Assembly (NCBI GenBank): GCA_036500345.1
Contig: DASYCE010000002.1
Location: forward strand, 1 to 64,000
DNA from: Gemmatimonadales bacterium
GTDB lineage: Bacteria; Gemmatimonadota; Gemmatimonadetes; Gemmatimonadales; GWC2-71-9
DNA length: 64,000 nt
Reading direction: 5' to 3'
Position numbers and translations under genes: made by a program. The notes beneath the pieces are model-generated. The model saw only the letters and a program-made list of their open reading frames with translations, was not told where the DNA came from and did no database searches. This document shows, piece by piece, positions 11,512 to 16,493 of this stretch; within the stretch, counting starts at the first letter, position 1; every line of letters starts with the position of its first letter.

Positions 11512-14457
11512 TCACTCGCCTTGATGGAGCGCCAAGCGCACTACTTCAGCGAGGTGGAGCGGAATCCTGCCGGTTTGCTGCACGATCTGCTCGTAGCAGG
11601 AGAAGCCATTCGCCACGATCAGCATGTCGCCGTCGGTAGCGCGGACCGCCGGAAGCAGCCGCTGCTCGCCGATTGCGATCGAGAGGTCGTACTTGTCGGC
11701 TTCGAACCCGAACGACCCCGCCATTCCGCAGCACCCCGAATCGAGCAGCTGATAGTCGAGTTCGAGTGACTTCATCACCGACTCCTCCGCCTTCATCGTC
11801 ATCACCGCCTTGTGATGGCAGTGGCCATGGACCATCGCGCGGCGCCGCAGCGGCCGCGTGCGAAAGTCGCGGTCGGCGAGAAACTCGCTGAGCATCACGG
11901 TCTGCTGCGACAGTCGCCGGGCGTCGTCATCGTCGGGAAAGAGCCCGATGAGTTCGTCGCGAAACGCCGCCACGCAACTCGGCTCGAGCCCGACGATCGG
12001 CGTGCCGGCGCGGATGTCGTCGCGCAGCGAGTCGATGGTGCGGCGCCAGAGTTGCTTGGCGCGGTCGAGCATCCCCCAGTCGTAGAGCGGTCGTCCGCAG
12101 CAGAGCGGGCGGGGCGGGATCGCCACGTCGTACCCCGCGCCTTCGAGCACTTCCACTGCCGCAATCGCCGGTGACGTCCTGAAGTAGTTGCTGAAGGTGT
12201 CGGGCCAGAGCAGCACGCGCGGCTTGCCGGTCGGCGGCTTCTTTCTGCGCCGGAACCAGCTGCGGAAGGTCGGATGCGCAAATCGCGGGATGCGCCGTTC
12301 GAGCGCGATCCCTCCGACGGCCTTGAGGAGGGCCGACAGCGGCGGCGTCTGCGTGACGATGTTCACCAGCGGCGCGATCGGCGCGGCGAACCGGGCCCAC
12401 TCGTGAATCAACCCCATGGTGTAGGCGGTCCGCGGGCGGACGCGCCCTTCGTAGTGGTGCGAGAGGAACTCGGCCTTGTAGGTCGCCATGTCGACACTGA
12501 CCGGGCAGTCGCGCTTGCACCCCTTGCACGCGAGGCAGAGGTCGAGGGCGTCGTGCACGGCGTCACTCTTCCATCCGTCGTCGATCGGGTCGCCCTCCAG
12601 CATCTCGAAGAGGAGCCGGGCACGGCCGCGGGTGGAGTCTTCTTCCTCGCGCGTCGCGGCGTAGCTGGGGCACATCGTTCCCGCGCCGTCGGTGCGGCGG
12701 CAGAGGCCGACGCCCACGCATCGTCCCGCGGCGTGCGCAAACGATCCGTGATCATCGGCGAACGCAAAATGGGTGACGACCGGGAGCGGGGAATAGCTGG
12801 GGCCGATGCGCAGATCCTGATCGGGCCGGCGCGGATGCACCACGCGGCCGGGATTCATCCGGTTGTCGGGATCCCACGCCGCCTTGAACTCCTCGAACGC
12901 CCGCACCAGATCGGCGCCGTACATCCTGGTGAGGAAGATGCCGCGCGCCTGACCGTCGCCGTGCTCGCCGGAGATCGATCCGCCGTACTTCACCACCAGA
13001 TCGGCGGCGCGGTCGAGGAATCGCATCCACGTGGCGACGCCTCCCTCTGTCGTGAGGTCGAAGTCGATGCGGCAATGGACGCAGCCGTGGCCGAAATGCC
13101 CGTACAGCACGGTGTGATAACCGAACTCGGCGAGGAGGTCGCGGAATTCGCGGAGATATTTCCCGAGATGCTCCGGTGCGACGGCGGCATCTTCCCAGCC
13201 TTCGTGGGTCGGCTTCATCCCCGGAGGATTGGCCGCAATTCCGAGTGCCGCCTCCCGCACTTCCCAGAGTTTCCGCGCCTCGCCGTCGTCATCGAAGATC
13301 GCGGCGTGAGGAGGAGCGGCACCCGATGTGATCCCGGACACGAATTCCTTCGCCTGCGACGTCGCGCCTTCCTTGGTGTCGTCGCCGAATTCCACCAGGA
13401 GCCAGCCGCGTCCCTCTGGCAGGAGGGCGAGCTGCTCGGTGTTCATGTCGCGCCGCTTCATCATGTCGATCATCACATCGTCCATCCCCTCGAGACCGAC
13501 CGGCTTGTGCGCCATGATCTCCGGGACGTGATCCGCAGCGATATACGCATCGGGATATCCCAGCACGACCAGCGTGCGCTTCGGCCGCGCAGGGATGAGT
13601 CGAACGGTTGCGCCGAGGACCATGACGCAGGTTCCCTCGGTGCCGACCAGCGCGTGTGCGACGTTGAAGCCGTGTTCGGGAAGGAGTGCTTCAAGGTTGA
13701 ATCCCGAGACACGCCGCGGGATCTGGACGAATCGCTCGCGGATCCGGTCGGCATACGTGTCGCGGATCTGCCGCAGCGCCCGATAGATCTCGGCGCGACG
13801 GCCGCCACTTGCGACGATCGTGGCGAATTCGTCGTCGCCGGTCGGACCGACCGTGAACCGCTGGCCGTCGTAGGTGAGGATGTCGAGATCGATCACCTGG
13901 TGGGACGTGAGCGGGCCGGGCCCGAAGAATTGCGACATCACCGAATGCACGCCGCACGAATTGTTGCCGATCATCCCGCCGAGGGTGTTGCGATTGTGGG
14001 TGGCGGGATCGGGACCGAAGGTGAGGCCGTGCGGCGCCGCGGCGCGGCGCAGGTCATCGAGCACGCACCCCGGTTCAACGGTGGCGATGCGCTGACGCGC
14101 ATTCAACGTGGTGATCCGGTTGAAGTACTTCGACGAATCGATGATCACCGCGACGTTGCACGCCTGCCCGGCCAGCGACGTCCCTCCGCCGCGCGGCGTG
14201 ACCGGGACGCCGTGCTTGCGGCAGATGGCCACGGTGCGGACCACATCCTCGGCGGTGCGCGGCAGCACCACGCCGATCGGGACATGCCGGTAGTTGGATG
14301 CGTCGGTGGACCACGCCGCGCGGCTTCCCGCGTCGAAGCGTACTTCGCCGGTCACCTGGCGGCGGAGTTCGCGTTCGAGATCGGCACCGGGTGCGGGCGG
14401 GTGGTGTGGGGTCAGATCGTGTCCTCGCGTCGCGCGTGGTCCATTTCGACGAACCAA
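11512..14457 (-). CDS. YdiJ-like FAD-binding and Fe-S dehydrogenase (D-2-hydroxyacid type)
   Basis: 981-residue single-chain dehydrogenase with, in order: a FAD-binding type 4 domain (RGGGTSLAGQACN), the FAD-oxidase C-terminal domain with the HFGHGCVHCRIDF metal/substrate motif, two ferredoxin-like cysteine clusters (GVGLCRRTDGAGTMCPSY and CLACKGCKRDCP), and two cysteine-rich CCG domains (PLCCGRPLYDWG and SGCCGMAGSFGFE). This equals GlcD plus GlcF fused, as in E. coli YdiJ (about 1,018 residues), reported to oxidise D-2-hydroxyglutarate or D-lactate-like substrates and pass electrons to the quinone pool. The annotated TTG start is uncertain; the conserved region begins near residue 25. It is divergent from the multicopper oxidase gene. 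Confidence 0.88.
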   Translation of the reverse strand: MVRRNGPRATRGHDLTPHHPPAPGADLERELRRQVTGEVRFDAGSRAAWSTDASNYRHVPIGVVLPRTAEDVVRTVAICRKHGVPVTPRGGGTSLAGQACNVAVIIDSSKYFNRITTLNARQRIATVEPGCVLDDLRRAAAPHGLTFGPDPATHNRNTLGGMIGNNSCGVHSVMSQFFGPGPLTSHQVIDLDILTYDGQRFTVGPTGDDEFATIVASGGRRAEIYRALRQIRDTYADRIRERFVQIPRRVSGFNLEALLPEHGFNVAHALVGTEGTCVMVLGATVRLIPARPKRTLVVLGYPDAYIAADHVPEIMAHKPVGLEGMDDVMIDMMKRRDMNTEQLALLPEGRGWLLVEFGDDTKEGATSQAKEFVSGITSGAAPPHAAIFDDDGEARKLWEVREAALGIAANPPGMKPTHEGWEDAAVAPEHLGKYLREFRDLLAEFGYHTVLYGHFGHGCVHCRIDFDLTTEGGVATWMRFLDRAADLVVKYGGSISGEHGDGQARGIFLTRMYGADLVRAFEEFKAAWDPDNRMNPGRVVHPRRPDQDLRIGPSYSPLPVVTHFAFADDHGSFAHAAGRCVGVGLCRRTDGAGTMCPSYAATREEEDSTRGRARLLFEMLEGDPIDDGWKSDAVHDALDLCLACKGCKRDCPVSVDMATYKAEFLSHHYEGRVRPRTAYTMGLIHEWARFAAPIAPLVNIVTQTPPLSALLKAVGGIALERRIPRFAHPTFRSWFRRRKKPPTGKPRVLLWPDTFSNYFRTSPAIAAVEVLEGAGYDVAIPPRPLCCGRPLYDWGMLDRAKQLWRRTIDSLRDDIRAGTPIVGLEPSCVAAFRDELIGLFPDDDDARRLSQQTVMLSEFLADRDFRTRPLRRRAMVHGHCHHKAVMTMKAEESVMKSLELDYQLLDSGCCGMAGSFGFEADKYDLSIAIGEQRLLPAVRATDGDMLIVANGFSCYEQIVQQTGRIPLHLAEVVRLALHQGE

Positions 14458-14597: not shown

Positions 14598-16493
14598 ATG
14601 CGCTTCGGACTCCTTGCCCCGCTGGGTGGTCTGCTCCTCATGGCGCCCGTGACCGCGCCGCCGGCGGCTGCGGGGCATCGCGGTCGTCAGCCGATCGCCT
14701 TCAACGACAATCGAGTCCACGCCGGGACGATCAGTGGTGCCGCGCTCTCGGTGGCACTCGTGGTCGATACCGGTGACTGGCGCCCCTTCGGCGCCGATCA
14801 CCGAGGGATTCCGATGCTGGCTTTCGGCGAAGCGGGGAAGCCGCTCCAGGATCCGGGACCGATGCTTCGCGTGGTGCGCGGAACAATGGTGCGCGTTGTC
14901 ATTCGCAATCGCACCGGGGCGCGGGTGGTGATCCACGGACTATCGGCGCGGCGGGGCGCCGTGATGGACACGATTGTGGTCGCGGCGGGCGCCACGGCCC
15001 ACGCCGCCTTTCGTGCCGATGTCGAGGGGACCTACTACTACTGGGGATCGTCGCACGGCGAGGATTTCGAGGCTCGCGACATCGACGACTCGCACTTGAG
15101 CGGTGCCTTCATCGTCGATCCGCCCGGTCCGGTCGCGCCTGACCGGGTCTTCGTGATCGAACGATACTCCGCCGACACGCTGCCCAACGGACAATCGGAT
15201 TTCTACCACGATCTCTTCACCTTCAACGGGAAGCCGTGGCCCAACACCGAACGGCTGACCTACACGCTGGGTGATTCCATTCGCTGGCGCATCGTCAATG
15301 CGTCCAACGATCTGCATCCGCTGCATCTGCATGGGTTCTTCTATCGCGTCAACGCGCGCGGAGACGTCGCCCGTGACACCGTCTACTGGGCGAACCAGCA
15401 ACGGATGGGCGTGACCGAGTCGATCCTCGATGGCACCACTGCCGACATCGCATGGCGCGCCGACCGTCCGGGAGACTGGATTTTCCACTGCCATCTCCCG
15501 CCGCACGTCGTGCCGAACACCGCCATCGGTCCCGACACCGAGCCGACCGGGCCCAGGGTGCAGCACATCGTCGACGGGTACCCGGGGCACGAGACGATGA
15601 ACCACGCCATGACCGGGATGGGTGGTCTCGTCATCGGCGTCACGATTGTGGCACCACACGGCTGGCACTCATACACCGGTTCGCGCCGCACGATCAGGCT
15701 GGTGGTGGAATCCGATTCCGCTCCCGCCGACACCGCACGCCGGTTTCGCTACGTCGTGAGCGCGACTCCCGGCTCGGCGCCGCTTCCGCAACCGGCCGGC
15801 GGGATTGCACCGACGCTGATTCTTCGTCGCGGTGAGCCGACCAGGATCTGGGTGGTCAACCATTCACCGGAAATGACTGCAGTGCACTGGCACGGAATGG
15901 AGCTCGAGAGCTACTACGACGGCGTTGCTGGAGTGAGCGGCGATCCGAAGTCGCTCGAACCGCCGATCATGCCGGGAGATTCGTTCGAAGTGCTGATGAC
16001 GCCACCGCGTGCCGGAACATTCATCTACCACACCCACTTCAATGACGTGCGGCAGCTCCTGCACGGCCTCTACGGTCCGCTCATCGTGCTCGATTCGGCC
16101 GAACATTGGAATCCGTCGATCGATCGCGTCTTCATGATCGGAGACAACACCACATTCCTGCCGGTGCTCAACGGATCGCGAACTCCCGAACCAGTGACGT
16201 TGAAGACGGGTACATCGTATCGCTTCCGGTTCATCAATATCTCGGTATCGGAGCCCGATGCGATTGCAACGCTTCTCCATGATGGTGTTCCGATCGAGTG
16301 GACGGCGATCGCGAAGGACGGCGCGGCGCTGCCGCCCTGGCAGCGGACGACCGGCGATGCGCGGCAGGCGATCAACATCGGCGAGACCTTCGATTTCACG
16401 GTCCAATCAGCCGACACGTCGTCGACGATGCTCGATATCCATCATTTCAACGGGGCGCCGATGGTGCACCAGGTGATCCGCTTCGTCAAATGA
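14598..16493 (+). CDS. Multicopper oxidase with permuted copper motifs
   Basis: 631-residue exported protein (signal peptide ending near ...PPAAAG) of the multicopper oxidase superfamily. It oxidises metals or phenols at a type 1 copper and reduces O2 at a trinuclear cluster. The ligand motifs are H240-P-L-H243-L-H245-G, H297-C298-H299-L-P-P-H303, H430-W-H432-G and H478-T-H480. All four sets are present, but in laccase-type enzymes HWHG and HxH come first and HPxHLHG/HCHxxxH last; here the order is reversed. The protein appears to hold four cupredoxin domains, with the copper motifs in the second and third. ATG 14598 was chosen over upstream frames because it opens the signal peptide. Substrate unknown. 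Confidence 0.85.
   Translation: MRFGLLAPLGGLLLMAPVTAPPAAAGHRGRQPIAFNDNRVHAGTISGAALSVALVVDTGDWRPFGADHRGIPMLAFGEAGKPLQDPGPMLRVVRGTMVRVVIRNRTGARVVIHGLSARRGAVMDTIVVAAGATAHAAFRADVEGTYYYWGSSHGEDFEARDIDDSHLSGAFIVDPPGPVAPDRVFVIERYSADTLPNGQSDFYHDLFTFNGKPWPNTERLTYTLGDSIRWRIVNASNDLHPLHLHGFFYRVNARGDVARDTVYWANQQRMGVTESILDGTTADIAWRADRPGDWIFHCHLPPHVVPNTAIGPDTEPTGPRVQHIVDGYPGHETMNHAMTGMGGLVIGVTIVAPHGWHSYTGSRRTIRLVVESDSAPADTARRFRYVVSATPGSAPLPQPAGGIAPTLILRRGEPTRIWVVNHSPEMTAVHWHGMELESYYDGVAGVSGDPKSLEPPIMPGDSFEVLMTPPRAGTFIYHTHFNDVRQLLHGLYGPLIVLDSAEHWNPSIDRVFMIGDNTTFLPVLNGSRTPEPVTLKTGTSYRFRFINISVSEPDAIATLLHDGVPIEWTAIAKDGAALPPWQRTTGDARQAINIGETFDFTVQSADTSSTMLDIHHFNGAPMVHQVIRFVK

Follow-up and report, generated by a model that had tools for sequence, protein, structure and literature searches.

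Why should a multicopper oxidase (MCO) carry its copper-binding motifs in reversed order? The window, a stretch of 64,000 nucleotides from a Gemmatimonadales bacterium, contains an MCO gene (Table 1) in which the motifs appear in the order C-D-A-B and not A-B-C-D. The preliminary description took the product for a natural circular permutation of a laccase-type enzyme, with a complete ligand set and four cupredoxin domains. The reading frame, its coordinates and the positions of all four motifs are exactly as given there, and the reversed order and the four cupredoxin-like domains are supported as well, the latter by hhalign and the AlphaFold2 (AF2) model. The permutation, on the other hand, does not agree with our data. 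We consider it highly probable, judging from the sequence and the predicted fold, that the protein is an exported MCO made of two fused two-domain units, (D1-D2)(D3-D4), with one type-1 (T1) copper site and one trinuclear site located between D2 and D3. The T1, T2 and T3 roles of the motif residues in Table 1 are those established for MCOs. The ATG at 14598 was chosen as the start because it would provide the protein with a signal peptide; the open frame itself runs further upstream over the divergent gene.

Table 1. Features of the four-domain MCO gene (positions in the window; aa, residues of the product).
Feature	Positions	Strand	Basis or remark
Four-domain MCO gene	14598..16493	+	631 aa + stop; intact
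Probable Sec signal peptide, aa 1-25	14598..14672	+	sequence; predicted; pLDDT low at aa 1-23
D1, Cu-oxidase_3-type cupredoxin domain, ligands lost, aa 33-177	14694..15128	+	Cu-oxidase_3 E 2e-5; hhalign
D2, cupredoxin domain, type-1 site and half of the trinuclear site, aa 178-361	15129..15680	+	Cu-oxidase_2, hhalign
HPLHLHG, aa 240-246: T1 His, T2 His, T3 His	15315..15335	+	sequence, conservation
HCHLPPH, aa 297-303: T3 His, T1 Cys, T3 His, T1 His	15486..15506	+	sequence, conservation
Long variable loop, aa 304-340, from T1 His to axial Met	15507..15617	+	partly helical in the model
Met341 in GMGGL, probable axial T1 ligand	15618..15620	+	from alignment with two-domain MCOs
D3, cupredoxin domain, other half of the trinuclear site, aa 362-501	15681..16100	+	Cu-oxidase_3 (E 2e-17), hhalign
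HWHG, aa 430-433: T2 and T3 His	15885..15896	+	sequence, conservation
HTH, aa 478-480: T3 His pair	16029..16037	+	sequence, conservation
D4, C-terminal cupredoxin domain (type: D2 of two-domain MCOs), copper ligands lost, aa 502-631	16101..16490	+	hhalign

The search for homologues with the same motif order revealed a real family rather than a misassembled gene. Within the phylum, 89 of 298 genomes gave a match to the four-domain MCO at E <= 1e-40, and the C-D-A-B order was found in all 29 homologues that were checked besides the query. A scan of the GTDB species genomes yielded 438 relatives; the best 80 of them, which all share this order, belong, going by their record titles, to Gemmatimonadota, Acidobacteriota, Eremiobacterota, Bacteroidota, Verrucomicrobiota, Rokubacteria and Alphaproteobacteria, and the frame is interrupted in one of these 80 (L104). 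The standard order was seen in the 33 other MCO loci sampled from the query genome and the phylum, except for one (L118) where the C-terminal half alone was readable. Misassembly is ruled out, the reversed order being common to about 110 homologues.

In some genomes (G079 and others) the four-domain family is represented by as many as four copies. In Gemmatirosa kalamazoonensis KBS708 a homologue (L171) resides on the 1.1-Mb plasmid 1, and among the 40 plasmid records listed for the D2-D3 segment it was the only long match in a single piece, the others aligning in two pieces. The query genome also encodes MCOs of standard order: a separate two-domain protein (G000:C11:170005-170718; L001, 348-aa frame) and three longer ones (a 774-aa frame on contig C11 and 516-aa frames on C1 and C16).

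The T1 His-Cys-His set and the eight histidines of the trinuclear cluster by which the MCO superfamily is recognised are all present and conserved. In the alignment of 76 sequences the residues H240, H243, H245, H297, C298, H299, H303, H430, H432 and H478 are invariant, and H480 and M341 are each kept in 75 sequences; the single departure from the core set is an Arg in place of His480 (L114), while in another homologue (L113) a Phe occupies the position of the axial Met341. The full ligand set of the preliminary description is supported. That the motifs are not there by chance is borne out by Pfam: Cu-oxidase_2 covers aa 206-304 (E 2e-20), and Cu-oxidase_3 has its best match at aa 404-500 (E 3e-26; 2e-17 in the D3 row of Table 1) and a weaker one in D1, at the N-terminus (E 2e-5). 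At the counterpart positions of D1 (V111/H113/W149/S151) His is not conserved in the same 76-sequence alignment.

The origin of the four domains was approached by comparing their profiles (hhalign) with a set of two-domain MCOs and two sets of three-domain MCOs, all taken from the phylum. D1 and D3 are closest to the first domain type and D2 and D4 to the second. The top match of D1 is D1 of the two-domain MCOs (E 3e-16), to which D3 is also related (E 2e-30), D1 and D3 matching each other at E 2e-12; D2 matches D2 of the two-domain MCOs at E 7e-27, and D4, a potential laccase D2, matches the same domain far better, at E 7e-14 vs 3e-6 or weaker for the three-domain MCOs. When domain pairs were used, D1-D2 and D3-D4 both aligned collinearly along the two-domain MCO profile, at E 9e-41 and 1e-40 respectively, vs best three-domain values of 9e-23 and 3e-27, and the two halves aligned with each other at E 1e-19. 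Single-sequence comparisons gave the same picture: the two-domain MCOs scored better than the 21 three-domain MCOs, with the exception of the most divergent two-domain references. One and the same stretch of a 431-aa two-domain copper oxidase from Burkholderia can be aligned with aa 84-341 as well as with aa 405-626 of the query, and the two-domain MCO of the query genome likewise aligns to both halves. Against the PDB, the two-domain MCOs 2zwn and 3g5w rank first for the D1-D2 profile.

In a tree of the half-proteins, the D1-D2 halves and the D3-D4 halves each form a monophyletic group (100/100 in both cases), which indicates that the fusion is older than the spread of the family; the two groups are not sisters in this tree, the deep nodes of which are weakly supported, and the halves may stem either from an internal duplication or from the fusion of two different two-domain genes. 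A two-domain MCO extended at its C-terminus (L159, 478-aa frame) clusters there with the copper oxidase from Burkholderia and shows a weak grouping with the D3-D4 halves.

The AF2 model, built with 76 sequences, has a mean pLDDT of 90.6 and a pTM of 0.92; only 24 residues fall below a pLDDT of 50, nearly all of them within the signal peptide. In Foldseek searches it was matched end-to-end by factors V and VIII, ceruloplasmin and MnxG (TMq mostly 0.57-0.64 over 700+ columns), the last of these being chain 9bxa_A of the Mnx complex (TMq 0.63). The global match to the three-domain laccases and CueO, in contrast, was poor, with TMq of about 0.3 and rmsd of about 16-17, as is to be expected if the domain connectivity differs. 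A fold search of BFVD was uninformative with regard to viral proteins; its two top matches are annotated copper oxidases of giant viruses with TMq of about 0.3.

These results bear directly on the circular permutation, in which D3 of a laccase would have moved ahead of D1-D2 and an extra N-terminal domain would have been added. Such a D3-D1-D2 arrangement is compatible with the motif order, and D1-D2 of three-domain MCOs can indeed be aligned with the D3-D4 half of the query, the best value cited above coming from the CopA-like set. Nevertheless, the rotation accounts for three domains and leaves the N-terminal D1 unexplained, and D1 is a ligand-less copy of the Cu-oxidase_3 type, not an unrelated addition. 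The query does not consist of three rotated domains with three-domain enzymes as their nearest kin: both halves fit the two-domain MCOs better, a single two-domain protein matches both of them, and the global fold resembles ceruloplasmin and MnxG and not the laccases. We therefore regard the permutation as improbable. Even less credible is the idea that the protein is an inactive structural relative retaining its ligand residues for another role. The ligands have indeed gone from two of the four domains, and the loss of copper does occur in this superfamily, SufI and factor V being examples, but the conservation of 11 core ligands and the axial Met across several phyla would be hard to explain without the use of copper.

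A reading that deserves more weight, although we consider it rather unlikely, derives the family from a six-domain MnxG-type oxidase by loss of the third unit (D5-D6). The architecture and the mechanism would then be the same as those of two fused two-domain units, and the evolutionary direction alone would differ. MnxG-like bacterial enzymes share the D2/D3 site with T1 in D2, MnxG has the same motif order, and the fold match to 9bxa is in line with such a descent. Against it stands the fact that no six-domain relative was seen in the query genome and that 9bxa is absent from the best 60 PDB matches of the D2-D3 profile, as it is from those of the D1-D2 profile.

For the preferred explanation, two fused two-domain units, the biology of two-domain MCOs offers a simple mechanism. 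These proteins are homotrimers in which the trinuclear cluster lies between subunits and is formed by D2 of one and D1 of the next (PMC13151041). If two units were joined in one chain, the intersubunit D2/D1 junction would become an intrachain D2/D3 junction, which may stand in for one intersubunit interface of the trimers. Subsequent loss of ligands from the half-sites in D1 and D4 would leave a single T1 copper, in D2, together with one trinuclear cluster where D2 meets D3. With the sole site kept there, the motifs of D2 (HPxHLHG and HCHxxxH) necessarily precede those of D3 (HWHG and HTH), so that tandem units with reciprocal ligand loss generate the reversed order without any permutation. 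In the working enzyme the substrate would reduce the T1 copper one electron at a time, the electrons would pass via Cys298 and its flanking histidines to the trinuclear cluster, and the latter would reduce O2 to water. The protein is most likely an exported O2-dependent oxidase; its copper loading, cluster geometry and oxidase activity are inferred.

The position of the active site and the reversed order are not new in themselves. The order C, D before A, B has already been published for MnxG (PMC3618234); in all bacterial six-domain MCOs of another published analysis the trinuclear site is placed at the junction of domains 2 and 3, with T1 in domain 2, and the same junction holds the trinuclear site of the algal Fox1 (PMC3600357). 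What is new is the four-domain form and its presence in several phyla. The scheme in which multicopper blue proteins are divided into two-, three- and six-domain types was based on a search that left out sequences shorter than 800 aa (PMC3600357), and in the open literature, which we searched non-exhaustively, no description of an MCO with four cupredoxin domains was found.

Comparison with the known oxidases places the family as follows. The MnxG type (Bacillus Mn(II) oxidase; PDB 9bxa), to which the likeness is drawn from the fold and published descriptions, shares with the query the motif order, the fold and the D2/D3 site, with T1 in domain 2 and the trinuclear ligands contributed by domains 2 and 3, but possesses six domains and at least 1217 aa vs four domains and 631 aa. 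Fox1, compared by its published description, has the same location of the trinuclear site but is six-domain and eukaryotic. The two-domain MCOs with T1 in domain 2 (2zwn, 3g5w and the oxidases of cop operons) are collinear with each half and have the same ligand motifs; they have two cupredoxin domains per chain and form a homotrimer with three sites, whereas the query has two such units per chain and keeps one site. Ceruloplasmin, hephaestin and factors V and VIII are likewise built of tandem two-domain repeats and provide the best global fold matches, although ceruloplasmin has six domains, with T1 sites in domains 2, 4 and 6, and carries its trinuclear site where domains 1 and 6 meet. The three-domain laccases, CueO and CopA share the ligand motifs and the chemistry but differ in the order A, B, C, D, in the D1/D3 location of the site and in the global fold.

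From this point of view, the four-domain MCO may be seen as offering the MnxG/Fox1 site in a compact form in bacteria. The conserved four-domain form, absent from the two-, three- and six-domain scheme, is a possible intermediate for the duplication model, and we tentatively suggest, without regarding it as probable, that these MCOs make up a separate class and a missing step from two-domain to six-domain enzymes, the D2/D3 oxidases of the MnxG/Fox1 type having arisen by addition of a third unit to a protein of this kind. The family would allow the origin of the six-domain oxidases to be tested with domain trees. On the practical side, a motif scan in which HWHG is expected to come first could sort these proteins wrongly.

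The long loop that covers the T1 site may offer a clue to the substrate. Its length is variable among the 76 homologues (median 28 aa, range 12-38); it forms helices at 317-326 and 333-340 in the AF2 model and carries H336, found in 58 of the 76 sequences, together with acidic residues. Because of this His/acid loop and the kinship to the two-domain oxidases of copper-resistance operons, our first guess for the substrate would be a metal ion (Cu(I), Mn(II) or Fe(II)), with a phenol as the second. Conserved neighbours of the four-domain gene were limited to widespread families, Ser/Thr kinases and permease-like proteins among them, and give no pointer to the substrate. The neighbours in the window are a divergent FAD/Fe-S oxidoreductase, a hybrid histidine kinase, an acid phosphatase and a MarR regulator; the first of them (11512-14457, minus strand) is a 981-aa protein with FAD-linked oxidase, 4Fe-4S and CCG domains, about 140 bases from the start of the MCO gene. 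On a plasmid of Burkholderia contaminans (L170:1207-2502) the two-domain copper oxidase lies between TolC and CopC/CopD genes, i.e. in a copper-resistance cluster. In this oxidase the axial Met is separated from HCHxxxH by a long Met-rich loop, placed like the loop of the query family.
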